Assembly (NCBI RefSeq): GCF_000190535.1
Contig: NC_015160.1
Location: forward strand, 3,596,001-3,660,000
Source: Odoribacter splanchnicus DSM 20712
GTDB taxonomy: Bacteria; Bacteroidota; Bacteroidia; Bacteroidales; Marinifilaceae
Direction of reading: 5' to 3'
Length of the DNA: 64,000 nt
Made by a program: the position numbers and the translations under genes. Below, in pieces: positions 5,389 to 25,978 of this stretch. The first letter of the stretch is position 1; the number at the start of each line of letters is the position of its first letter. The notes beneath the pieces were generated by a model. The model had not been told where the DNA came from. It searched no databases and saw only the letters and a program-made list of their open reading frames with translations.

Positions 5389-6210
5389 ATGTTGGTTACG
5401 GCTTCAATTGTTGTTTATAAGACAAATGTGTTCGAATTAGAAAAGGTTTTGAAAAGTACTATTTCTTCTATCGTTAATATTATATATCTTGTGGATAATT
5501 CTCCTTTAAATGAATCTTTGGACAGTTTTAGAAATTTTTCTCCCAAAATATGTTATATTTCTAATCCTATAAATACCGGTTTTGGAGCAGGGCATAATTT
5601 GGCTATACAGAGAGCGTTGGAAATTAATTCAGATTATCATATTGTGATAAATCCAGATATTTATTTTGAATGTGGGGTGATAGAGAAGTTGACGCTTTTT
5701 ATGAATTCTTATGAAGATGTAGGTTTAGTAATGCCTAAAGTATTGTATCCTAACGGAGAATTGCAATATTTGTGCAAGTTATTACCAACTCCATTTGATT
5801 TATTAGGAAGACGCTTTTTACCCTGTAAAAAATATATTAGATATAGAAATGAAAGATATGAACTACGGTTTTTGGGATATGATAAGGAGATGGAAGTTCC
5901 TTCATTGTCCGGTTGCTTTATGTTCATACGAGTTTCTGTATTAAAACAGATTGGTGGATTTGATGAACGTTTTTTTATGTATGCGGAAGATCTGGACCTT
6001 TGCCGTCGGATAGGACAAGTGTCGAAAACAATGTATTATCCGGGAGTCTGTGTATTTCATGGGTATGCCAAAGGGTCTTATAAAAATAAGAAATTGCTTA
6101 AATATCATATTTGTTCTATTATAAAATATTTTAATAAATGGGGATGGTTTTTTGATTCTAAAAGAAGGAAAATCAATAGAGGTATATTAACACAATATGA
6201 TAAACGATGA
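5389..6210 (+). CDS. Glycosyltransferase family 2, WbbL/rhamnosyltransferase-like
   Basis: 273 aa GT-A fold. It shows SIVVYKTN at the N-terminus, then LVDNSP, the [10 protein letters not shown] helix and the NPDI metal/nucleotide motif near residue 89, followed by the conserved [19 protein letters not shown] near 190-210. That arrangement is typical of WbbL-like dTDP-rhamnosyltransferases, which fits the adjacent dTDP-rhamnose genes (inference). The stop TGA overlaps the start of the rfbA remnant (ATGA at 6207-6210), a classical coupled junction. Base composition is markedly AT-rich and changes abruptly after this gene. Confidence 0.85.
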
Positions 6211-6796
6211 AAGGCATCGTTTTAGCCGGAGGGTCTGGGATCCGCTTATATCCTATTACAAAAGGGGGAAGCAATTACTTCCGATTTTCGATAAGCCGAT
6301 GATTTATTATCCGGTGTCGGTGCTGATGTTGGCAGGGATTCGGGAGATCTTGATTATTTCAACCCCTCAGGATTTACCCGGATTCCGGCGGTTGCTGGGA
6401 GACGGGGCGGATTACGGGGTGCGTTTCGAGTATGCGGAGCAGCCGAGTCCGGACGGGCTGGCACAGGCGTTTATCATCGGGGAGAAATTTATAGGGGAAG
6501 ATTCGGCTTGTCTGGTACTGGGCGATAATATATTTTATGGTCAGAGTTTTACACGGATGCTGCTGGAGGCGGTGAGGACGGCAGAGGAAGAACAAAAGGC
6601 GACGGTTTTCGGTTATTGGGTGAATGACCCGGAACGGTATGGTGTGGCGGAGTTCGACAAGGAAGGGAATGTGTTGAGTATCGAAGAGAAACCTGCACAG
6701 CCGAAATCCAACTATGCAGTGGTGGGGTTGTATTTTTATCCCAAAATAAAAATCGTTTGGGCTTTACCTGAGAATTCGTGTGATATTATCAATTAA
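6207..6796 (+). pseudogene. rfbA: rfbA remnant (glucose-1-phosphate thymidylyltransferase), frameshifted and truncated
   Basis: From ATG 6207 the reading begins [20 protein letters not shown], the RfbA start with the usual GTR changed to GIR. Near 6263-6270 the frame breaks: only two bases separate the GGG codon from AAG CAA TTA, where the family has two codons (a 4-base loss). The rest of the protein ([16 protein letters not shown] to [11 protein letters not shown]) continues in another frame. After YFYP the last 17 residues do not match the family and the product stops near 200 residues, against about 290 normally. The enzyme makes dTDP-glucose from dTTP and glucose-1-phosphate. This copy should not be functional, so another rfbA elsewhere would be needed if rhamnose is still made. 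Confidence 0.85.
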
Positions 6797-13623: not shown

Positions 13624-13659
13624 ATGAAAAAAAGAGTAGAAATTAAAACCATACAATGA
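13624..13659 (+). other. Possible 11-codon leader ORF coupled to the giant gene
   Basis: ATG 13624 opens MKKRVEIKTIQ and stops at TGA 13657-13659, which overlaps the ATG of the giant gene (ATGA at 13656-13659). The geometry would allow translational coupling. The ORF is short and could occur by chance. Confidence 0.25.
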
Positions 13660-16600
13660 AAATCAAAGGAGAACCGAGGGCATTTCTGAGTAATGAGGCC
13701 CGACAATTACTGAATCTTTACGAATCGTTAGGGGAACGGGCAGAGATTTTTTTGCCGCGTCATATTTATGACAATCTGACCAGTTTTGTGAAGCTTTGTT
13801 TTGAAGAACCCGATGACCCGGCTGTCCAGCAGTCGGAGATCAACCGTTATTTGTTGAAGTTCCGGGAAGATATTCCGGGATATACGGATGTTGCTTTGAT
13901 GCTTTGTCCGCATCATCCTTCCAAAGCTTTCGAATTGAGTGGAAGGCGGGGAGAGTTTATGAAGAAGATCGATGAGTTCCTGGATACCGAAGCAGTAAGT
14001 CCTGATTCCAGAGTTCTCTTGAAAAATATTAAAGACACTCATGATTTTTCGGTAGGAACTCCTCCTGTGCGCAGTAGCCATATCGAGTTTATCTCCCAGG
14101 TACAATTGGGCGGGCAGGTACGCGATTTGCGGAAATACCGGGATGTGATCGGGGTGACCGGTGACCTGAACGAAGCGCATTGGAATTATTTGATGGATAC
14201 TTTGGAGCAGATGATCGGCCAGAGTACCCATTATACAACCGGGGCTGAGAAGGCCGACTTTCTCAACCGGATGCGTTGGGCGGTGAATTTCAAGGGACTG
14301 AACGGTATGATTACGACGGTGGTTTCGGGAAATGCCGATAAAGCGGTCAGTCTGCTCCGGGGAGAAGTATTCGGTAAGAATAGTGTACAAGTGTTGGAGA
14401 ATCCTTCTACCGAAGAATTGTTCGAACAGATGAGGGTGGATACAACCTCGGTCTTTGTGGTGAAAGCCCGGCATATGCGGGTGAATCCTTTCTCCGGTGA
14501 AAAATGGTTTCCTCTGCTGACCCGTCTGGTGATTGTCGACGATTCGCGGGAATCGAGGAGTTCCAATACCTCTCTGGTGTTCTGTTTTCATAACGGGATT
14601 ATCCATACACTGAATAAGGTACATACCAAGAAATTGGGTTCTCCGGCCAATACGCAATTGAACTTGCGGTTGATTCTGGAAAATGTGAATCCCTCTTTCC
14701 TGTCAGAATTCCGGGAAAAAATCGAGCTGCAAATCAAAGCCTACGAGAAAGAGATCAATCAGATTCTGACCGAACAGATCGGGACTACCGGGGATGCGGT
14801 GAAACGGTTGAATGTGTTTAAACTGGATATGTTCTCCAGGAAGATCGTTCAGGATAAATATTCCCTGGAAAAATTACGGGATTTTATTTATTTTCTGGAG
14901 AATTGCCATAAAGAAGAAAAACGGCAGGCACAAACCCGTGAATTGATCGATGAATTCGAAAGCCGGATCCGGCAATACTTTTATTCGGATTGCCCCCAGA
15001 TTCAGGTGTTGAGTGTATTGGAAGGCGGCGGACGCAACCAGATCCGTACTTATGGACGTTATCTGTTGCAAAAGCCTTTGCACCGACTGGAAGATAAGGT
15101 GTATAAAGCTTGCCGGTTGATCCTGAATATTATCCCCAGCAATTATGAACGTACCCTGAAGAATCACTTTCATAAGAATTTCGGCATCAACCTGTTTTTA
15201 GAGAAATATCAGGCTTATATCACGAAGATAGATAATGATGCTAACAATAAAGGCCGTTACGATAATTTCCTCAATGACCTGGGGATCCGGGAAAAATACC
15301 GGGCCTTGCCTGTGGAGGATCAGCAAATCGTGAAAGAATTCTTATCGGCTTTAGGCAATCTGGAACAGACTTCGGTTTCCGATTCGGTACAGATGATTAT
15401 CCGGGATCTGTTGTTTCATCCCAATGGAAAGCCGAAACCTTATATTATTTACAATGCGATGCAGGCTTGGGAATATAAGGATTTGCTGCCTGACGATACT
15501 TTCGATATCAATCCTTTCGATATCGAAATCGAGAATTTGCCTGACGGGCGTTTAGCCTATGAACGGCTGACGGATAAATTACTCCGTATCAAATCGACGC
15601 TGGCTTTATTCGACGATAGTGGCAGCCTTTGGGATTTGTTTTGTGAGAATACGACGATTCTGATCAACGATCCGAATAATCCGACCGGTTATACGGATTT
15701 CAATACCGAAGCTTTGAATGCGTTCCTGAAACTGATGAATACTTGTAAGATTACTCTTTTTCTCGACGAAGCTTATGCCGACAGTGTGAAGGTTACGGAT
15801 AAACATATGCCGAAATGGCGTACGATCTCGCGGTATATCATCAATAATATCAATGCCCAGGCCAATATCCGGGCGGTATCATCGTTATCGACCACCAAGA
15901 ATTTGTCGGCTACGGGCGATCGGTTAGGGGCTTTGGCGGTGACCCCTCAGGCTGCTGCGGTCGCTGCTTTTGTGCGTCAGCTGAATTCCTGTTCGCACGG
16001 CAATAACAACTCTTTACTGATGTTGAATAATTTGCTGGAGACGGCACAGGTAGCTAAAAAAATAAAAGATACGCTGGAAAGCGAGTTACCGAAAAATGCT
16101 TCCCGCTTTAAGATCAAAGAGACACTGATCCGGTTTATCAATGAACAGATCGGACGGATTGAAAAATCGAACGCCAATAGTGTTGCAAACCGTCAGTTGC
16201 ATAAGACCGCCGGATTTGAAGGTAGCCCGTTGTACCTGTTCCTGCTGGATGAGCTGGTAGCTTTGGATAAACTGGATATATTGGCCCTGCCGGACGATTT
16301 TAAATACCATAACGAACCTTTCTTCGTTTATTACCAGAGACGGTTGGTGGAAAATCTGAACCGTTTCCGGGTGAATAAGAATTTCCGTTCAGAATCGATG
16401 TTACGGATGAGTTGGGCAAAAGAGGTGGCTCAACGGGTTGTAGCTGAATTCGAAGGGACGGAAGTCAGTTGGTTGCCTTCGGATGGTTCTTATTTGTTTA
16501 ACTTCCGGGTGGGGGAAGGGTTTTCTTATGCCGATCTGCTTTGTTTCTGCCAATATCTGGCGTTACACCGGGGGATTGCTGCTGTGCCCTATCCTACCGG

Positions 16601-19600
16601 TTTGGTCCGCTTTGCTATCGGAGGTTTTCTTGCCGATACCGAGGAGAGTAAGCAAGTGTTTAAATATGAACTGGAAGACGGTTTTACCATTTTTATGAAA
16701 TATTGGACACTGTTTGCGGCTAAGCGGTTGGATGCGGCTTATAAGGAGGTGGAAAGCCATACGATTTTGGATGAGATTTTCGCTTATACTAAAATTCAGG
16801 AATTGATCGATGCGATTATCGGCGATTATCCTTTATCCGCTAAATACCGGAAAGACAAAGCGCCTTCTTTGCAGATCCGTGATATCCGGACCTTGTACCA
16901 TGCCTCTCCCGAGCGTAGCGGAGTGAGCATTACGACGATCGACCGGTCGGTAAATTCGGTCATCGAATTACATGGCGACAAGATCGGTTCTTGCCGGGAT
17001 GTATTCGAGTTTATCCGGAGTGCTGCTTTTACGAAGGTATATGAAAATTTACTGGCACAGATTTATAAGCAAGTGCCGGCCATTGCCGACCTGGATTTCA
17101 ATACGGTAAGTTCGAAATACAGTAAGGCGGTGATCCTGAAATATATCACTAATAAGAAGACGTTCCAGCCCAACTATAATGTACTGGACGATCCGATGGA
17201 GAAAAATGTGATGCGGGAAATTCTGATTGAAATGGAGCATCTTCTGTTCTCGGATAGTAAAGTGAAGATTTTAGCTATCGATGCAACCGGAAATCCGGAG
17301 TTGGATAAATCGAAATTGGAAGGAATCAATGTGATTATCAAGAAATATATCCGGGAAATTTTATTGCATTTCAATCTGCCGTTTGAAAAAGACAGCCTCG
17401 AACCCAGCCGCAAGGAGATTGTCCGGGTAGCCGGAGAAACATTCGAGGAAATCACCGGTATTCGGTTGAGTGACCTGAACCTGCAAATCTGGGTAGATGA
17501 ATTTATCAACCGTCTCCGCGCTCTGCCCGAATTTAAAGAGACGTTGCTGGCTCAGAAGTGTATGGGGTATATGATGGATTCGATCGCTTCGGGGATGAAC
17601 AAAGAAAATTTGCCGGTAACCGATAAGATCCTGTTTCTGTATTTATTACATAACGATCATTCTTTCTATCGGCTGGTATCGGCCAAATTGAAGTATTTCA
17701 GCGATAAGATCGGAGCTTGTGCGGACAGGGAGGTGAAGATGTTTACAGAGGAGTTTATCACCGAGATATTACCCACCCAATTGAAGGAAATCAACGATTA
17801 TATCATGCGGCGCCGGGATATTAAGGTGGCTGAGAAAGAGATCCACCGGGTGAGCCGGAAAGTGGTGTTGTTCTATATCAGCATGATCAAGCGGACAAAA
17901 GGAACCGATTATTACAAGCGCTATACCCATACGATGGTCCGGCTGGTGGAGACGGCTTTTATGAAACAAAATTCCAGTGTCAACGAGATGGTACAGCACG
18001 GTATTTCTATTTATAAAGATTTTGAAATGGAGAATAAGGTGCTGGAGACTTTCGAAGATGGACGGATCGCCTGGATCAACGAACTGATGCAGAAATGCGG
18101 TGTCATTTCTTCCGAGCAGCCGGTGCAGGAGCATACCCGTATCGTTACGGATGCTAAGAAACGGGAATATCCGTTCCACAAAGTGGATCGTCCGGGGACT
18201 ATTTCGAAAAAGCGGCTTGGGGAGGCAGGACCGAACGATTATTTGAAGCTATTGGATTTGCGGCCCGATTCGTCTTTTTTTATCGGTCGTTTGGCCCGGT
18301 TTATCGCCAATATGGATTCGGACGATTATCGCTGTAAGGTGGTGAAACATGGCATGGTGAAGGAGCTGGTGATTTTCCAGAAGGGATATATGAAATACCT
18401 GACCGATAACTACCGGCTGAATTATACCGAAGACATTCCGATCGAAGATATCACCCGGTTCGTCCCGGATGTGATCAGTTTCCTGGGGGCTCCCGAAAAG
18501 CTGATTTCTTTCCCGCAGATCGGGTATTTCGATATACCGGGGCCGAACGGGAACATCAAGACGATCGTTACGCCGTTGAAACAGAAGGTAGATTATTTCG
18601 GGGATGTCAAGAAACCACGTCTGACGGTGATCAATGAGAAAATTAAAGAGATCGGCGGTAATCCGCGTCACGGTTCTTTGTTTGCCGTGGAAGAAAACGA
18701 CGGTAGTATCTTTGTTATCGAGATCAATGGGGATAGTGGGGTAGGGAAGTCGGAAATGATCGCCGCTTTTATCCTGAAATGGTTGCGGAATAACCTCGAG
18801 GGGGTCCGTTCGGTAAAACTGATTGCGGGCGATATGTTCCATGAGTTTCAGGATGCCGAAGGTAATCTGTATGGGATCGGTACAGAGGTCGGTGATTTCT
18901 CGCGGACGACGGATTTCGACCCGGATTATATCAAGTATTATAAGTATCTGTTCGAAAGTAGTGCCGACAGTAATGTCGAAGATCTCAATTCCCGGAGCAC
19001 GGTGAGCGGTATGTGTGATATCACGATGCCTTATAAGATCGATATCATGCTGAGTGCCGGAAACTATTCGAAGGAGGAAGCAGGTATAACCCGGGTGGAC
19101 AATCCTGAAAATTTCCTGTTGTATATGGATGCCCATGGGGAGAGGAAAGAGAAAGCGACCAGTCAGGATGGTCCTAATTTCCAGCGTACCTTGAAGCGTT
19201 ATACGGCAGATAAGAATATTGTAGATGTGATTGCCCGTCATGGTAATTATCTGGATGATATTTTAGATTGGGATTATGTAGAAAATGAAAAGCAATATTA
19301 TCTGGCTTCTTCGTTCAAATTATTGGATAAGATCGATATTACGGAAGTAGTCGGTCAGATTTTCGGCGGTAAGCAGTTTAAACGGGACGGGGTTGGGTAT
19401 ACCATCCAAACGGTCTCTTTCGATATGATACAGAACCGGTTTATTGCTACCGTATCGTATGGGGAAAGAGAAAGCCGGGAAATGATGATCGACCGGAAGA
19501 TGTTCAGTGCGATTTTCGATTCTCTGGCCAGTACTCCGGGAGGGCAACCGTTTATTGCTGAGGAAGGACAGTTGGAATCGGTGATGAACCTGGTGAAAAT

Positions 19601-20384
19601 CATGCGCGGAGGGAGCGACGGTAAGGGGAAAGCCCGGAATATTCAATGTGGTATGCTTTCAACGGAGATCGGCAAGAAAGGCCGGGAGATTACCGGACCT
19701 CAGAAAGCCGCTATGGAGCTGAAACGGATGATTCAAGAGGTACGGATTACCCGCCCGGAAATCAATGAAGGGAAAATTTGCGTGAAACGCCTGCTGAACG
19801 AGAAATATCGTCCTATTTTCAAAGGAGAAATGAATAGTTCGGAATTGTGGCGATATAATTTCTTTATCTATCAGCTGGAGAACATGAAGAAAGCCGACTA
19901 TCGCCGGATGGACGATATCGACCGTAAGGTAGATATGAGTAATCTGGTGGATTTTGTACCTGTAGACCCGAAGAAAGAATTCAGTCCTTTGTTGGTGAAT
20001 CCCAATCTGAATATCGAACTGAGTAGTTTCAGCGAGACGTTCGAGGAATTGATGAGTTTGCCGAATTATCCGGAATTTGCGTGTGAATTCGCCGAACATA
20101 TGGAACAGTTGTATGTCGCAGAGGGATATAGTGAAGAAACGAATATCAATAATATGATCGTACAGTTATTGCTTCTGGAGGGATATTGTACGACCGAGGA
20201 CGTGGCTCGTGGTAGTGTCATTGAAAAAGTGAACCGGGAGACGATTGCCGCTGCCAAGTATGCGGTGGTTCGGTATTTGGAAGGCGAACGGGTGAAACGC
20301 GCTTCATCCGGTAAACCTGTCGAAAAGATCGCGGCTACCGGTACAGGTAAAAAGGTTGCTACGAAGGGGATACGTAAAAAGTAA
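13656..20384 (+). CDS. Giant fusion: PLP aminotransferase-like domain plus PEPCK/HprK-like P-loop domain
   Basis: 2242 aa, cytosolic. Residues 1-590 are mostly helical and not recognised. A fold-type I aminotransferase-like domain spans about 600-1000: NDPNNPTG at 671-678, DEAY at 704-707, the PLP-lysine motif STTKNLSATGDRLG with Lys748 and Arg756, and VRFA with the carboxylate-binding type Arg985. Residues 1010-1600 are helical and unknown. A P-loop GDSGVGKS lies at 1692-1699 (Lys1698), followed by LIAGDMFH (Asp1726, His1729) and YMDAHGE (Asp1825), an order like the kinase-1/kinase-2 motifs of PEP carboxykinase and HPr kinase. The tail after 2210 is basic. Codon use matches the neighbours. 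The combination suggests amino-group and phosphoryl chemistry in one chain; substrate unknown. A fossil second copy lies at 21834-22095. Confidence 0.85.
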   Translation: MKIKGEPRAFLSNEARQLLNLYESLGERAEIFLPRHIYDNLTSFVKLCFEEPDDPAVQQSEINRYLLKFREDIPGYTDVALMLCPHHPSKAFELSGRRGEFMKKIDEFLDTEAVSPDSRVLLKNIKDTHDFSVGTPPVRSSHIEFISQVQLGGQVRDLRKYRDVIGVTGDLNEAHWNYLMDTLEQMIGQSTHYTTGAEKADFLNRMRWAVNFKGLNGMITTVVSGNADKAVSLLRGEVFGKNSVQVLENPSTEELFEQMRVDTTSVFVVKARHMRVNPFSGEKWFPLLTRLVIVDDSRESRSSNTSLVFCFHNGIIHTLNKVHTKKLGSPANTQLNLRLILENVNPSFLSEFREKIELQIKAYEKEINQILTEQIGTTGDAVKRLNVFKLDMFSRKIVQDKYSLEKLRDFIYFLENCHKEEKRQAQTRELIDEFESRIRQYFYSDCPQIQVLSVLEGGGRNQIRTYGRYLLQKPLHRLEDKVYKACRLILNIIPSNYERTLKNHFHKNFGINLFLEKYQAYITKIDNDANNKGRYDNFLNDLGIREKYRALPVEDQQIVKEFLSALGNLEQTSVSDSVQMIIRDLLFHPNGKPKPYIIYNAMQAWEYKDLLPDDTFDINPFDIEIENLPDGRLAYERLTDKLLRIKSTLALFDDSGSLWDLFCENTTILINDPNNPTGYTDFNTEALNAFLKLMNTCKITLFLDEAYADSVKVTDKHMPKWRTISRYIINNINAQANIRAVSSLSTTKNLSATGDRLGALAVTPQAAAVAAFVRQLNSCSHGNNNSLLMLNNLLETAQVAKKIKDTLESELPKNASRFKIKETLIRFINEQIGRIEKSNANSVANRQLHKTAGFEGSPLYLFLLDELVALDKLDILALPDDFKYHNEPFFVYYQRRLVENLNRFRVNKNFRSESMLRMSWAKEVAQRVVAEFEGTEVSWLPSDGSYLFNFRVGEGFSYADLLCFCQYLALHRGIAAVPYPTGLVRFAIGGFLADTEESKQVFKYELEDGFTIFMKYWTLFAAKRLDAAYKEVESHTILDEIFAYTKIQELIDAIIGDYPLSAKYRKDKAPSLQIRDIRTLYHASPERSGVSITTIDRSVNSVIELHGDKIGSCRDVFEFIRSAAFTKVYENLLAQIYKQVPAIADLDFNTVSSKYSKAVILKYITNKKTFQPNYNVLDDPMEKNVMREILIEMEHLLFSDSKVKILAIDATGNPELDKSKLEGINVIIKKYIREILLHFNLPFEKDSLEPSRKEIVRVAGETFEEITGIRLSDLNLQIWVDEFINRLRALPEFKETLLAQKCMGYMMDSIASGMNKENLPVTDKILFLYLLHNDHSFYRLVSAKLKYFSDKIGACADREVKMFTEEFITEILPTQLKEINDYIMRRRDIKVAEKEIHRVSRKVVLFYISMIKRTKGTDYYKRYTHTMVRLVETAFMKQNSSVNEMVQHGISIYKDFEMENKVLETFEDGRIAWINELMQKCGVISSEQPVQEHTRIVTDAKKREYPFHKVDRPGTISKKRLGEAGPNDYLKLLDLRPDSSFFIGRLARFIANMDSDDYRCKVVKHGMVKELVIFQKGYMKYLTDNYRLNYTEDIPIEDITRFVPDVISFLGAPEKLISFPQIGYFDIPGPNGNIKTIVTPLKQKVDYFGDVKKPRLTVINEKIKEIGGNPRHGSLFAVEENDGSIFVIEINGDSGVGKSEMIAAFILKWLRNNLEGVRSVKLIAGDMFHEFQDAEGNLYGIGTEVGDFSRTTDFDPDYIKYYKYLFESSADSNVEDLNSRSTVSGMCDITMPYKIDIMLSAGNYSKEEAGITRVDNPENFLLYMDAHGERKEKATSQDGPNFQRTLKRYTADKNIVDVIARHGNYLDDILDWDYVENEKQYYLASSFKLLDKIDITEVVGQIFGGKQFKRDGVGYTIQTVSFDMIQNRFIATVSYGERESREMMIDRKMFSAIFDSLASTPGGQPFIAEEGQLESVMNLVKIMRGGSDGKGKARNIQCGMLSTEIGKKGREITGPQKAAMELKRMIQEVRITRPEINEGKICVKRLLNEKYRPIFKGEMNSSELWRYNFFIYQLENMKKADYRRMDDIDRKVDMSNLVDFVPVDPKKEFSPLLVNPNLNIELSSFSETFEELMSLPNYPEFACEFAEHMEQLYVAEGYSEETNINNMIVQLLLLEGYCTTEDVARGSVIEKVNRETIAAAKYAVVRYLEGERVKRASSGKPVEKIAATGTGKKVATKGIRKK

Positions 20385-21756: not shown

Positions 21757-21828
21757 AGGCCACAGGAAATAGAACGGAAATTTTTGGTCAAGGGAGATTT
21801 CAAGTCACAGGCTTTTCAATCGGTACGG
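21757..21828 (+). pseudogene. Fossil 5' end of a CYTH-domain gene
   Basis: The frame from 21760 reads PQEIERKFLVKGDFK, then AFQSVR, closely matching residues 2-24 of the intact CYTH protein at 25508, including the ExExK motif. The start codon position reads AGG (21757-21759) instead of ATG, and the similarity stops at about 21828, where giant-gene sequence begins. The fragment cannot make a protein. Confidence 0.85.
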
Positions 21829-21833
21829 CTTAT

Positions 21834-22095
21834 GATTTTGAAATGAAGAATAGGGTACTGGAGATTTTTAAAGATGGACAGGTCGCCTGGATTAACGAAC
21901 TGATGCAGAAATGCGGTGTCATTTCCTCCGAACAGCCGGTGCAGGAACATACCTGTATCGTTACGGATGCTAAGAAACGGGAATATCCGGATCGTCCGGG
22001 AACTATTCCGGAAAAGCTGCTTGAAGAGACTGTTTCTGGAGGGATATGGCACAACCGAGGATGTGGCCTGTGGTAGTGTCATTGAAAAAGTGAAT
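21834..22095 (+). pseudogene. Fossil fragments of a second giant PLP/P-loop gene
   Basis: 21834 to about 22031 aligns with 18018-18227 of the giant gene (residues about 1455-1523), with nearly identical text such as WINELMQKCGVISSEQPVQE and an in-frame 12-base deletion after AAKKREYP-type sequence. From about 22034 to 22095 the sequence jumps to 20170-20235 (residues about 2172-2194, LEGYCTTEDVARGSVIEKVN). About 1.9 kb between these parts is missing. A 77-codon ORF survives but begins and ends inside unrelated frames. The copy differs by many point changes, so it is an old paralogue and not a recent duplication. Confidence 0.88.
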
Positions 22096-22174: not shown

Positions 22175-23489
22175 ATGAATTTTTCTTTTATCCGGGATCG
22201 TAGATCATTTTCAGATTTTATTTTTATTCTGTGGGCAGGAGGAGCGGCCCTGCTTTCTTATTCGTTAGTATATGCATTGCGTAAACCTTTTACGGCTGCT
22301 ACATTTGATGGGCTGAGTATTTGGGGAATGGATTATAAGGTTGTAGTGACTATTACTCAGATTTTAGGTTATTTGTTGGCCAAGTTTATCGGCATTAAAT
22401 TGATTTCTGAGTTAAAGGGACAACATCGTTTAAAATTTATTTTGGGGGCGATTGTTTTAGCTGAGTTGGCTTTAGTCGGTTTTGCTATCCTGCCGTCTCC
22501 GGGTAATATCTTTGCTATGTTTTTTAATGGGCTGGCTTTGGGATGTATGTGGGGAGTGATTTTCAGTTTTATAGAAGGGCGGCGGGTAACGGATATGCTA
22601 GCCAGTTTATTGGGGATTAGCATGGTGATTGGTTCAGGTGCAGCGAAATCCCTGGGATTGTTTGTGATGGACCATTGGCAGGTCAGTGAGTTTTGGATGC
22701 CTGCCCTGATCGGTGGTTGTGCTTTGCCATGCCTGGCTTTATTGGGATATGTGTTGCAATCTCTGCCAAAACCTTCCGAAGAAGACAGGGCTTTGAAAGC
22801 AGAGCGGATGACTTTGGATGGAAGGCAACGCTGGGCTTTATTCAAAAAATTATATGCCTTTTCTCTCTATTATTTTAGTCGCTAATTTTTTGTTGGTGGC
22901 TTTACGGGATATAAAGGAAGATTTTCTGGTGAAAATATTTGATGTTGCGGGGAGTGGTTATTCTTCATGGATATTCGCTCAATTGGACAGTATCGTTACT
23001 TTGATTATCCTGATCATCTTCGGATTAATGGTTTTTGTCCGTAATAATATGCGGGTTTTATTGATTTTATTGAGTTTGGTGATTTTGGGCATGCTGACCA
23101 TGTCTTTTATTTCGTTGAGATATGAGGCATTGCAACTAAGTCCGGTAGTTTGGTTATTTATTCAAAGTCTCTGTTTATATCTGGCTTATTTGTGTTTTCA
23201 GACTATTTTCTTTGATCGTTTTATAGCTTGTTTCCGTATCCGGGGGAATGTCGGTTTTTTTATTGTATTGATTGATTTCATCGGTTATTTAGGAACGGTG
23301 ATTGTCTTAGCCGTAAAGGAATTTTTAAATCCGGATATCAATTGGTTATCGTTTTATAACCAATTGGCGGGTTATGTGGGTTTGGGATGCAGTGTATTGT
23401 TTGTCGGTGCTTGGGTTTATCTGTACCGGCAGGCAAAACGAAGAGCGTCTGAAAAGGTGATGCCTCTGGAAGCTGCTCATGCTTATTGA
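22175..23489 (+). pseudogene. DUF5690-family membrane protein, frameshifted (AEP operon)
   Basis: Two overlapping frames, 22175-22885 and about 22818-23489, together give a 437-residue polytopic membrane protein of about 12 helices. The break is at the six-A run 22844-22849: removing one A restores FKNYMPFLSIILVANFLLVAL across the junction. The first part has the MFS-like VYALRKPFTAATFDG and GLALGCMWGVIFSFIEGRR. The family often sits beside phosphonoacetaldehyde hydrolase genes, and I infer an organophosphonate importer. The break could be a real inactivating insertion, a phase-variable homopolymer or a sequencing error. It begins the operon with phnX and phnW. Confidence 0.8.
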
Positions 23490-23529
23490 TTGGTTTTATT
23501 CTAATTACAGTAATATTTGATTTAAGGAC

Positions 23530-24315
23530 ATGAAAAAAGTTAGTTGTGTCATTATGGATTGGGCCGGAACGGCTGTCGATTTTGGGTGTTTTGCTCCATT
23601 GAATGCTTTTTTGAGGGTGTTTCAGGAGCAGGGTGTGACGATCACTTACCGGCAAGCCCGTGAACCGATGGGATTATTAAAGATTGAACATATAAAGGCT
23701 ATTTTGAAAATGCCTGAAGTGAGTGAAAGATTTCGTACAGCACATGGACGGGAATGGAATCAGAATGATGTCGCAATCATGTATCAGAGTTTTGAGAAAC
23801 ATTTGTTTGCTTCACTTCAGGATTTTACGACTCCTGTTCCGGGAGTTATAGAGACAATGGAACAATTACGTCGTGAAGGGATCCGTATTGGTTCAACGAC
23901 AGGGTATACCGACGCTATGATGAAAATTGTACAACCCGGAGCTGCTGCTCAGGGATATACTGTAGATTGTCTGGTAACTCCGGATCATTTGCCTGCCGGA
24001 CGCCCGGCTCCTTATATGATTTACCGGAACATGACAGAGCTGGCGATTCCTTCTGTTGACGAGGTGGTTAAAGTTGGAGATACTATCGCCGATATCCGGG
24101 AAGGATTGAATGCAAAAGTATGTTCTGTCGGAGTAATTACAGGTAGTAATGAGTTGGGGTTGACCGAGGAGGAATACAAAACTATGCCTGAACCGGAGTT
24201 ATATACTTTGAAACAAGAGGTCAGAGAGCGGATGATGGCAGCCGGTGCACATTATGTGCTGGATAATATCCGTGAATTGCCGGACCTGATACATAATTTA
24301 ATGAATAAAAAATAA
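23530..24315 (+). CDS. phnX: Phosphonoacetaldehyde hydrolase (phosphonatase)
   Basis: 261 aa, HAD superfamily. The nucleophile motif is MDWAGT with Asp10 and Ala12. The Schiff-base lysine is Lys51 in EPMGLLKIEHI, the residue that distinguishes phosphonatase from other HAD enzymes. GSTTGYT (near 120) and VGDTIADIREG (near 185) supply the remaining HAD motifs. It cleaves the C-P bond of phosphonoacetaldehyde to acetaldehyde and phosphate, the second step of 2-aminoethylphosphonate use. It is intact, although the genes on both sides are broken. phnW starts 7 bases downstream. Confidence 0.96.
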   Translation: MKKVSCVIMDWAGTAVDFGCFAPLNAFLRVFQEQGVTITYRQAREPMGLLKIEHIKAILKMPEVSERFRTAHGREWNQNDVAIMYQSFEKHLFASLQDFTTPVPGVIETMEQLRREGIRIGSTTGYTDAMMKIVQPGAAAQGYTVDCLVTPDHLPAGRPAPYMIYRNMTELAIPSVDEVVKVGDTIADIREGLNAKVCSVGVITGSNELGLTEEEYKTMPEPELYTLKQEVRERMMAAGAHYVLDNIRELPDLIHNLMNKK

Positions 24316-24322
24316 TAGGTGT

Positions 24323-25417
24323 ATGAGAAATTATTTACTGTTGACCCCTGGACCGTTGAGTACTTCTGAGACGGTGAAAGAAGCCATGTTACAGGATTGG
24401 TGTACCTGGGATAAAGATTACAATGAAGGAATAGTTACTGTGATCCGGAAAGAATTGCTGGAGGTGGCAGGACTGGATGAGAAGGAATATACAACTGTGT
24501 TGTTACAAGGAAGTGGGACTTATGGCGTAGAGGCAACTTTGGGAGCTGTCGTGAAACCTACCGACAGGTTACTGATTATAGCGAATGGTGCTTATGGCAA
24601 ACGGATGTCGGCCATTGCTGATTATTATAAACTGGATTATGTCATGGTGGCTTTGAAAGAAACGGAGCTGATTACCCCCGCAATCGTGGAGGAGGCTTTG
24701 AAAAATCATCCTGGAATCAGCCATTTGTCTTTGGTCCATAGTGAAACAACGACGGGTTTATTGAATCCGATTGAAGAAATTGCAGAGGTGTTGCGTGGAC
24801 GCGGGATCACCTGAATCGTTGATGCCATGAGTAGTTTTGGAGGGATTCCTATCGATATGAAAAAACTGGGTATTGATTTTCTGGTTAGTAGTGCCAATAA
24901 GTGTATACAGGGAGTTCCGGGCTTTACCTTTGTTCTCGCTTCTCGGGAAAAATTGCTGAAATGCAAAGGAGTTGCCCGTTCTTTGTCCCTGGATATTTAT
25001 GCCCAATGGGAAGAAATGGAAAAAGGGCATGGAAAATGGCGGTTTACCTCACCGACTCATGTTGTACGGGCATTTTTTCAAGCTTTGAAAGAGTTGAAAG
25101 CAGAGGGAGGTATAGAAGCCCGTTACCGCCGTTATTGCCGGAATCATGAGGTATTAGTGGAAGGAATGCGGGCTATTGGTTTTTCCACCTTGCTGGAACC
25201 GGAAAAGCAGTCTCCGATTATTACTTCTTTTCTTTATCCGGAGCCGGGTTTTTCGTTTACAGAGTTTTATGGGTTGCTGAAACAACAGGGTTTTGTCATT
25301 TATCCCGGAAAGGTTTCGGATGCTGATACATTCCGGATTGGTACTATTGGAGATGTATTCCCGGAGGATTTTGAAAGATTGACACAAGCTGTTGCGGCTA
25401 TCAGACAGGTAAATTAA
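24323..25417 (+). pseudogene. phnW: 2-aminoethylphosphonate-pyruvate transaminase with in-frame stop
   Basis: The frame covers 364 positions, normal for PhnW, but codon 164 is TGA (24812-24814) just before [10 protein letters not shown]. Both sides match the family: YLLLTPGPLSTS at the N-terminus, LLQGSGTYGVEA, VHSETTTGLLNPIEE, then [13 protein letters not shown] with PLP Lys193. The upstream piece (163 aa) lacks the PLP lysine. The downstream piece could start at ATG 24827 but lacks the N-terminal half, so no active enzyme is expected. TGA serves as stop in many genes of this window, so recoding as tryptophan is unlikely. PhnW converts AEP and pyruvate to phosphonoacetaldehyde and alanine. 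Confidence 0.92.
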
Positions 25418-25507: not shown

Positions 25508-25978
25508 ATGCCACAAGAGATAGAAAGAAAGTTTTTGGTCCGGGGAGACTTTAAAGCATATGCTTGCCAATCCTTTCGGATTGTACAGGGCTATTTGTCC
25601 TCCGTACCGGAAAGGACGGTCAGGATACGGGTGAAAGGTGAACAGGGCTATCTTACTGTAAAAGGTAAAAGTGATGTTCATGGAGTTACCCGCTATGAAT
25701 GGGAAAAAGAGATTGCCAGGGAAGATGCAGAAGAACTCCTGAAATTGTGCGAGCCTGGGGTGGTTGACAAAATTCGTTATTTAGTGAAAGTAGGGGGGCA
25801 TATTTTCGAGGTAGACGAGTTTCTGGGGGAGAATAAAGGGTTATTGCTGGCTGAAGTTGAATTAAAGCAGGAGGATGAACTTTTTGAAAAGCCGGAATGG
25901 TTGGGAGAAGAAGTGACCGGAGATCTGCGTTATTATAATGCAATGCTGGCACACCGCCCCTATCGAAGTTGGAAGTAA
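25508..25978 (+). CDS. CYTH-domain protein (triphosphate tunnel enzyme family)
   Basis: 156 aa. It begins with EIERKFLV carrying the ExExK signature (Glu4, Glu6, Lys8). Alternating basic and acidic strands follow: RTVRIRVKGEQGYLTVKGK, YEWEKEI, VDKIRYLV, FEVDEF and LLLAEVELK. This is the full set of the eight-stranded CYTH tunnel that binds triphosphate and two metal ions. Small bacterial members act on triphosphate or polyphosphate-like substrates; the exact one cannot be read here. TAATTTTG at 25493-25500 is a good -7 box, 7 bases before the ATG, but no -33 box is at the right distance. A truncated relative lies at 21757. Confidence 0.93.
   Translation: MPQEIERKFLVRGDFKAYACQSFRIVQGYLSSVPERTVRIRVKGEQGYLTVKGKSDVHGVTRYEWEKEIAREDAEELLKLCEPGVVDKIRYLVKVGGHIFEVDEFLGENKGLLLAEVELKQEDELFEKPEWLGEEVTGDLRYYNAMLAHRPYRSWK

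Follow-up and report, generated by a model that had tools for sequence, protein, structure and literature searches.

A 2242-residue Odoribacter protein predicted to join a fold-type I aminotransferase to a phosphoenolpyruvate carboxykinase-like module

Why would a single bacterial polypeptide carry the active-site signatures of both an aminotransferase and a phosphoryl-transfer enzyme? The question is raised by a giant gene of Odoribacter splanchnicus DSM 20712, found in a 64,000-nucleotide stretch of contig NC_015160.1 (positions 3,596,001 to 3,660,000, forward strand; the window hereafter). A sequence-only reading had described its product as a pyridoxal phosphate (PLP) aminotransferase-like domain fused to a P-loop domain resembling phosphoenolpyruvate (PEP) carboxykinase (PEPCK) or HPr kinase. 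Both predicted folds agree with this pairing of a fold-type I aminotransferase and an enzyme of the PEPCK/HPr kinase superfamily. Conservation of the catalytic motifs, strong constraint in every segment and the lack of a partner gene conserved across families, all established by computation, lead us to favour tentatively a self-contained bifunctional enzyme, in which amino acid/2-oxo acid exchange may be coupled to enol-phosphate chemistry; its activity and substrates we infer. The gene and its two predicted halves are as follows.

13656..20384, plus strand: whole gene, 2242 residues, aminotransferase-PEPCK fusion (open reading frame (ORF), homologues, ratio of nonsynonymous to synonymous substitution rates (dN/dS))
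13878..16727, plus strand: fold-type I aminotransferase with large inserts, residues ~75-1024 (predicted structure)
18009..19757, plus strand: PEPCK-like module, residues ~1452-2034 (predicted structure)

The reading frame is real. It is open across 2242 codons, and opposite-strand frame 1 is broken by many stops, the other minus-strand frames holding ORFs of at most 330 residues. Compared with the relatives at loci L030 and L015, dN/dS is 0.015-0.031 and alike in the N-terminal, PLP, middle, PEPCK and C-terminal segments; against a third relative (L040) dS is partly saturated and the usable segments give 0.025-0.049, all of these values being rough because dS is high throughout. Full-length homologues occur across Bacteroidota: a protein search returned 350 matches, 115 of the best 120 covering 98-100% of the query, and 117 loci encode relatives when one genome per species is taken. 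Counts by locus given below refer to the best 80 of these 117 loci, with 77-80 aligned rows.

Residues ~75 to ~1024 are predicted to fold as a single fold-type I aminotransferase, with a core of ~370 residues broken up by ~570 others. The ~590 N-terminal residues previously regarded as a separate unknown region therefore lie mostly within the span of this fold. PF00155 matches residues 665-799 (E 2.1e-11; 44.1 bits against a gathering cut-off of 19.7), and the expected motifs are in place.

14040..14069, plus strand: HDFSVGTPPV, residues 129-138 (within the structurally aligned span)
15666..15689, plus strand: NDPNNPTG, residues 671-678 (sequence, PF00155, alignment)
15765..15776, plus strand: DEAY, residues 704-707 (1iax alignment, conservation)
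15888..15899, plus strand: STTK with the PLP lysine 748 (aligned to the PLP lysine of ACC synthase, 80/80)
16608..16610, plus strand: Arg985, candidate alpha-carboxylate arginine (80/80)

All motif positions given earlier were correct, including STTK748-x7-R756LG, VRFA at residues 984-987 and GDSGVGKS with Lys1698 in the second half, and the motifs are real and far beyond chance, being invariant at 80 of 80 loci in the aminotransferase and in 78 of 78 rows in the PEPCK part. Lys748 stands opposite the lysine that binds PLP in ACC synthase (1iax), with R756, the phosphate arginine, also aligned; N675, D704, Y707, K748, R756 and R985 are unchanged at all 80 homologous loci. HDFSVGTPPV, in which D130, S132, G134, P136 and P137 are invariant in the 74-76 rows reaching them, we take to be the N-terminal carboxylate-binding motif from its form and from knowledge of the family, which is also our ground for assigning PLP contacts to DEAY and the candidate role to Arg985.

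The second half, residues ~1452-2034, is predicted to adopt the PEPCK-type two-domain fold, on which all 50 structural rows among the matches listed agree. The earlier description as PEPCK/HPr-kinase-like stands at the level of the superfamily, and what changes is that the fold predicted for the P-loop half is of the PEPCK type. In the structural match lists for both halves other folds are absent, yet one domain fills each list; HPr kinase is not among the rows listed for the PEPCK-like half, which is not an exclusion.

18591..18614, plus strand: DYFGDVKK, residues 1646-1653, counterpart of PEPCK Y-x-G-E-M-K-K (hhalign)
18729..18752, plus strand: GDSGVGKS P-loop, residues 1692-1699, with Lys1698 (hhalign, conservation)
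18828..18836, plus strand: GDM, residues 1725-1727, kinase-2 site with one Asp (1726) against two in PEPCK (alignments)
18987..18995, plus strand: NSR, residues 1778-1780, counterpart of PEPCK N-T-R via a stand-alone family described below (alignments)

In the hhalign comparisons Lys1698 falls opposite the lysine in the P-loop of the organism's own PEPCK, and K1653 and H1672 fall opposite the PEPCK metal-site Lys and His; the roles given to these three residues are those of their PEPCK counterparts. Y1647, K1652 and K1653 are invariant in 78 of 78 rows, as are H1672, K1698, S1699 and D1726 in the 78 rows reaching them, and N1778 and R1780 in 77 of 77. Direct alignment to a PEPCK profile (31 of 31 loci) scores 44.9 over 184 columns, and a global alignment of the kinase part to PEPCK spans 25 columns only. 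Scores with a GTP-PEPCK profile from 15 of 25 loci are weak, at 29.4 for the giant (maximum 23.4 in 15 shuffles) and 28.5 for the stand-alone family (shuffled maximum 25.4).

Among the relatives found, this family of 577-residue stand-alone proteins, annotated as PEPCK, comes nearest to the second half; hhalign matches it to residues ~1555-1836 of the giant at E 1.5e-22.

L014 661-2394 and CP033373.1 88508-90217: stand-alone 577-residue family members ("phosphoenolpyruvate carboxykinase" according to the sources)

The family scores below the PEPCK family cut-offs, yet has at least 5829 matches; it is rare in the Bacteroidota genomes searched, and the literature searched, by queries none of which was aimed at this family alone, turned up no study of it.

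How might the two halves work together? Under the bifunctional reading the first half (residues 75-1024) would act as a PLP aminotransferase, catalysing amino-group exchange between amino and 2-oxo acids on Lys748. Its relatives work as dimers, and it is probably dimeric like them. The second half (residues 1452-2034) would bind a nucleoside triphosphate (NTP) at GDSGVGKS, hold a metal by Lys1653, His1672 and probably Asp1726, and interconvert an oxo acid and an enol phosphate, with CO2 released or taken up. Fusion of the halves would allow the shared oxo acid to be handed from one site to the other. A shared intermediate is suggested because two near-complete active-site signatures lie on one chain without partner genes, and aspartate <-> oxaloacetate <-> PEP + CO2 would be the simplest substrate set because one half yields a 2-oxo acid, the kind of compound on which the other normally acts. 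Activity at both sites and the sharing of an intermediate, and likewise its identity and the direction of flow, we infer.

Several observations weigh against this reading. No NCBIfam aminotransferase equivalog cut-off is reached, the best model being GntC (33.4 bits against 415), and the archaeal aspartate aminotransferase model scores 21.3 bits against 550; specificity for aspartate is therefore unsupported. In the second half, PF01293 and PF00821 are not among the matches up to E 1 for either the whole protein or the piece 1501-1915, and no PEPCK family of Pfam or NCBIfam matches the PEPCK part at its cut-off. G1725, D1726 and M1727, present in 78 of 78 rows, offer a single kinase-2 Asp where PEPCK has two consecutive ones. 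Asp1726 corresponds to the second PEPCK Asp when aligned via the stand-alone family or HPr kinase, and to the first by direct alignment, which would leave Met at a metal-ligand position. Arg1750 replaces the Lys of PEPCK G-C-Y-A-K. Arg65 of E. coli PEPCK holds the substrate carboxylate; an arginine of this type is unplaced in the giant, one alignment, judged by eye, setting Ala/Ser1500 there, close to the invariant Arg1495 and Arg1503. The P-loop core moreover scores as well with HPr kinase (49.96 over 60 columns) as with PEPCK, and the genome has one separate, ordinary ATP-PEPCK. Finally, the inserts, middle and C-terminal regions, more than half of the chain, fall outside what the two folds explain, and the halves were predicted separately, not as one chain.

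A more specific form of the proposal, which we hold possible but on balance doubtful, is an undescribed Bacteroidota enzyme of the PEP-oxaloacetate node in which oxaloacetate or an analogue would pass directly between transamination and PEPCK chemistry, converting aspartate <-> PEP without a free intermediate. A 2-oxo acid would serve as amino acceptor, CO2 would be fixed or released and NTP would take part, in parallel with the ordinary PEPCK. PMC8100219 notes a role of PEPCK in capnophilic bacteria and in producers of succinate. If active, this chain of unusual size would tie amino acid pools to the PEP-oxaloacetate node within one polypeptide, in gut bacteria that include Odoribacter and Alistipes. 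It would also set a large "PEP carboxykinase" family of loose annotation beside a partner reaction, making the function of both testable.

The same node supplies the argument for a different division of labour, in which the aminotransferase is the sole enzyme and the PEPCK-fold half is a regulator or sensor that would adjust its activity on binding nucleotide or PEP/oxaloacetate. In the malic enzyme-PTA described in PMC8100219, the fused PTA-like domain is allosteric only, and the low PEPCK scores and the retention of one of two kinase-2 Asp also speak for this reading. The invariance of the P-loop Lys and Ser, K1653, H1672 and R1780 in 77-78 of 77-78 rows exceeds the needs of mere binding, and we regard a purely regulatory half as unlikely.

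Also improbable, in our judgement, is that the two-step logic holds with an oxo acid other than oxaloacetate, such as a sulfo- or phosphono-analogue from which an unusual enol phosphate would arise, an idea that overlaps the general form of the bifunctional reading. Ala/Ser1500 at the possible place of the substrate arginine, the kinase-2 site and Arg1750, all unlike PEPCK, and the ordinary PEPCK kept elsewhere in the genome argue for it. Set against these, no close neighbouring pathway genes recur across families, and nothing points directly to such a substrate.

The earlier suggestion that the chain might make or sense a phosphorylated amino compound, or act as a nutrient switch, would follow if the second half were an HPr kinase/PEPCK-superfamily kinase whose target is a protein or a small molecule but not an enolate. 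Its Walker A sequence, GDSGVGKSE, is HPr kinase-like, and hhalign to an HPr kinase profile (12 of 25 loci passing a length and motif filter) gives E 3.1e-5 at the score quoted above, against a shuffled maximum of 27.0. However, that match is confined to its 60 columns, whereas the PEPCK K-K motif is present and the PEPCK fold extends over 1452-2034. A switch of the HPr-kinase/phosphotransferase-system type is unsupported because the search of the organism's own genome (a single contig of 4,392,288 bases) found neither HPr, for which the control was positive in 7 of 14, nor HPr kinase. PEPCK chemistry phosphorylates an enol derived from an oxo acid, so a phosphorylated amino compound is possible but not the simplest product, and we rate this alternative as distinctly improbable. 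That the giant gene is an artefact, either a chance ORF or two genes that a sequencing error has merged, has next to no probability and is already refuted by full-length relatives with 45-92% identity in many assemblies and by the dN/dS of 0.015-0.031; nothing was found in its favour.

As to the genomic surroundings, the chain looks self-sufficient because close neighbour genes recur only within single families. No operon partner recurs across families: close-upstream families recur in 7-9 loci, each in Marinilabiliaceae only (one of nine rows unlabelled) or in Rikenellaceae only, and the widest-spread neighbour family appears at 12 of 81 loci at scattered distances, with flanks of at least 1 kb on both sides at only 54 of 80 loci. 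The nearest upstream ORF is on the same strand in 40 cases and the opposite in 28, the downstream one in 33 and 33 (ORFs called mechanically). The only other match to the giant in its own genome lies just downstream.

21834..22094, plus strand: remains of a decayed second copy in two pieces (86% and 89% identical in DNA to codons ~1455-1522 and ~2172-2193)

It forms part of a decayed mosaic at window 21759-22094, which begins with a CYTH-like start (family assigned by eye; 76% DNA identity to the ORF at 25508) followed by both pieces; their 86-89% identity suggests a lost second copy. Further downstream, an MFS transporter-like gene (22175-23489) and a 2-aminoethylphosphonate transaminase-like gene (24323-25417, named by eye) each appear as two adjacent ORFs, with a phosphonoacetaldehyde hydrolase-like ORF between them (window 22175-25417). 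A glucose-1-phosphate thymidylyltransferase-like ORF at 6197-6796 (199 residues) seems short by eye.

The regions outside the two cores may form contacts between the two sites.

14274..15290, plus strand: large insert within the aminotransferase, approximately residues 207-545, alpha/beta and helical (span against aligned length, secondary structure; borders tentative)
16773..18008, plus strand: middle region, mostly helical, residues ~1040-1451 (predicted structure)
19758..20384, plus strand: C-terminal helical region, residues 2035-2242, last ~30 residues variable (alignment, predicted structure)

Within the insert, residues 313-382 (window 14592-14801) show a weak FapA-like match in 13 of 29 members (best E 5.8e-5), which in the window protein itself is below the cut-off (E 0.011; 15.8 bits against 31). 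No Pfam family reaches its cut-off in the middle region of the window protein. Its likeness to the N-terminal part of the stand-alone family is not clearly above chance (21.25 against a 15-shuffle maximum of 21.07, 31 columns), and an internal repeat between insert and middle region was rejected (score 15.7 against 26.2). A separate N-terminal protein family was likewise discarded: with the best 8000 candidates scored, all 44 matches are at least 50% identical and are read as pieces or shorter versions of the giant.

Hosts among the best 80 loci are Odoribacter, Alistipes and other Rikenellaceae, Marinilabiliaceae, Ancylomarina and Salinivirgaceae, together with metagenome-assembled genomes labelled Flavobacteriaceae, Calditrichaceae, Ignavibacteriae and Chlorobiota; 8 of the 80 have frames below 2100 residues, mostly on contigs ending within the gene. 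In a FastTree phylogeny of 73 rows (the other 72 loci plus the window), Rikenellaceae, Marinilabiliaceae and Odoribacteraceae each form one group, the last with a support of only 62, and the named rows nearest to the window protein are Odoribacter. Presence is patchy, with clear copies in 9 of 59 near genomes, its own included (the copy in G003 lies in two contig pieces); the number rises to 11 if a stand-alone PEPCK-like protein (G053) and a short C-terminal piece (G051) are included. Two genomes of the same genus, 97% and 99% complete, gave no match. Across a phylum sample 3 of 395 genomes are carriers, again including its own, and one of the three copies is interrupted by an in-frame stop; the remaining 3 of 6 matches hold the aminotransferase motif only. 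This distribution fits mostly vertical inheritance with losses, as far as long branches and the labels of metagenome-assembled genomes allow the tree to be read. Phages and plasmids gave no match, none of 44 viral-contig stretches matching a pattern encodes a relative, and a defence role was set aside after one weak PADLOC match to the giant (E 0.023).

How does the giant compare with known systems? The literature searched, in which coverage of subscription papers is thin, returned nothing relevant on a characterised enzyme with this pairing, in line with the earlier claim, and the aminotransferase-PEPCK combination appears to lack a described example there. Searched as a single sequence, the window protein matched no PDB sequence up to E 1. 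With fold-type I (class I/II) aminotransferases such as the kynurenine aminotransferase II homologue 1x0m, LysN and ACC synthase it shares the fold over ~370 residues and the PLP Lys, NPTG, DEAY and Arg motifs, but it differs in its ~570 interrupting residues, its fusion to PEPCK and its scores below the equivalog cut-offs. Its likeness to HPr kinase/phosphorylase consists of the Walker A and the following Asp/GTE stretch, a core of 60 columns, and its own genome yielded no HPr. From PEPCK of the ATP and GTP types it departs in scoring below the curated cut-offs, in its HPr kinase-like Walker A, single kinase-2 Asp and Arg1750 for Lys, and in being fused, while sharing the fold and the Y-x-G-x-x-K-K, His, P-loop and Arg motifs. 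The stand-alone family, found in Dysgonomonas and Limosilactobacillus, occurs singly, without the aminotransferase to which its counterpart in the giant is joined.
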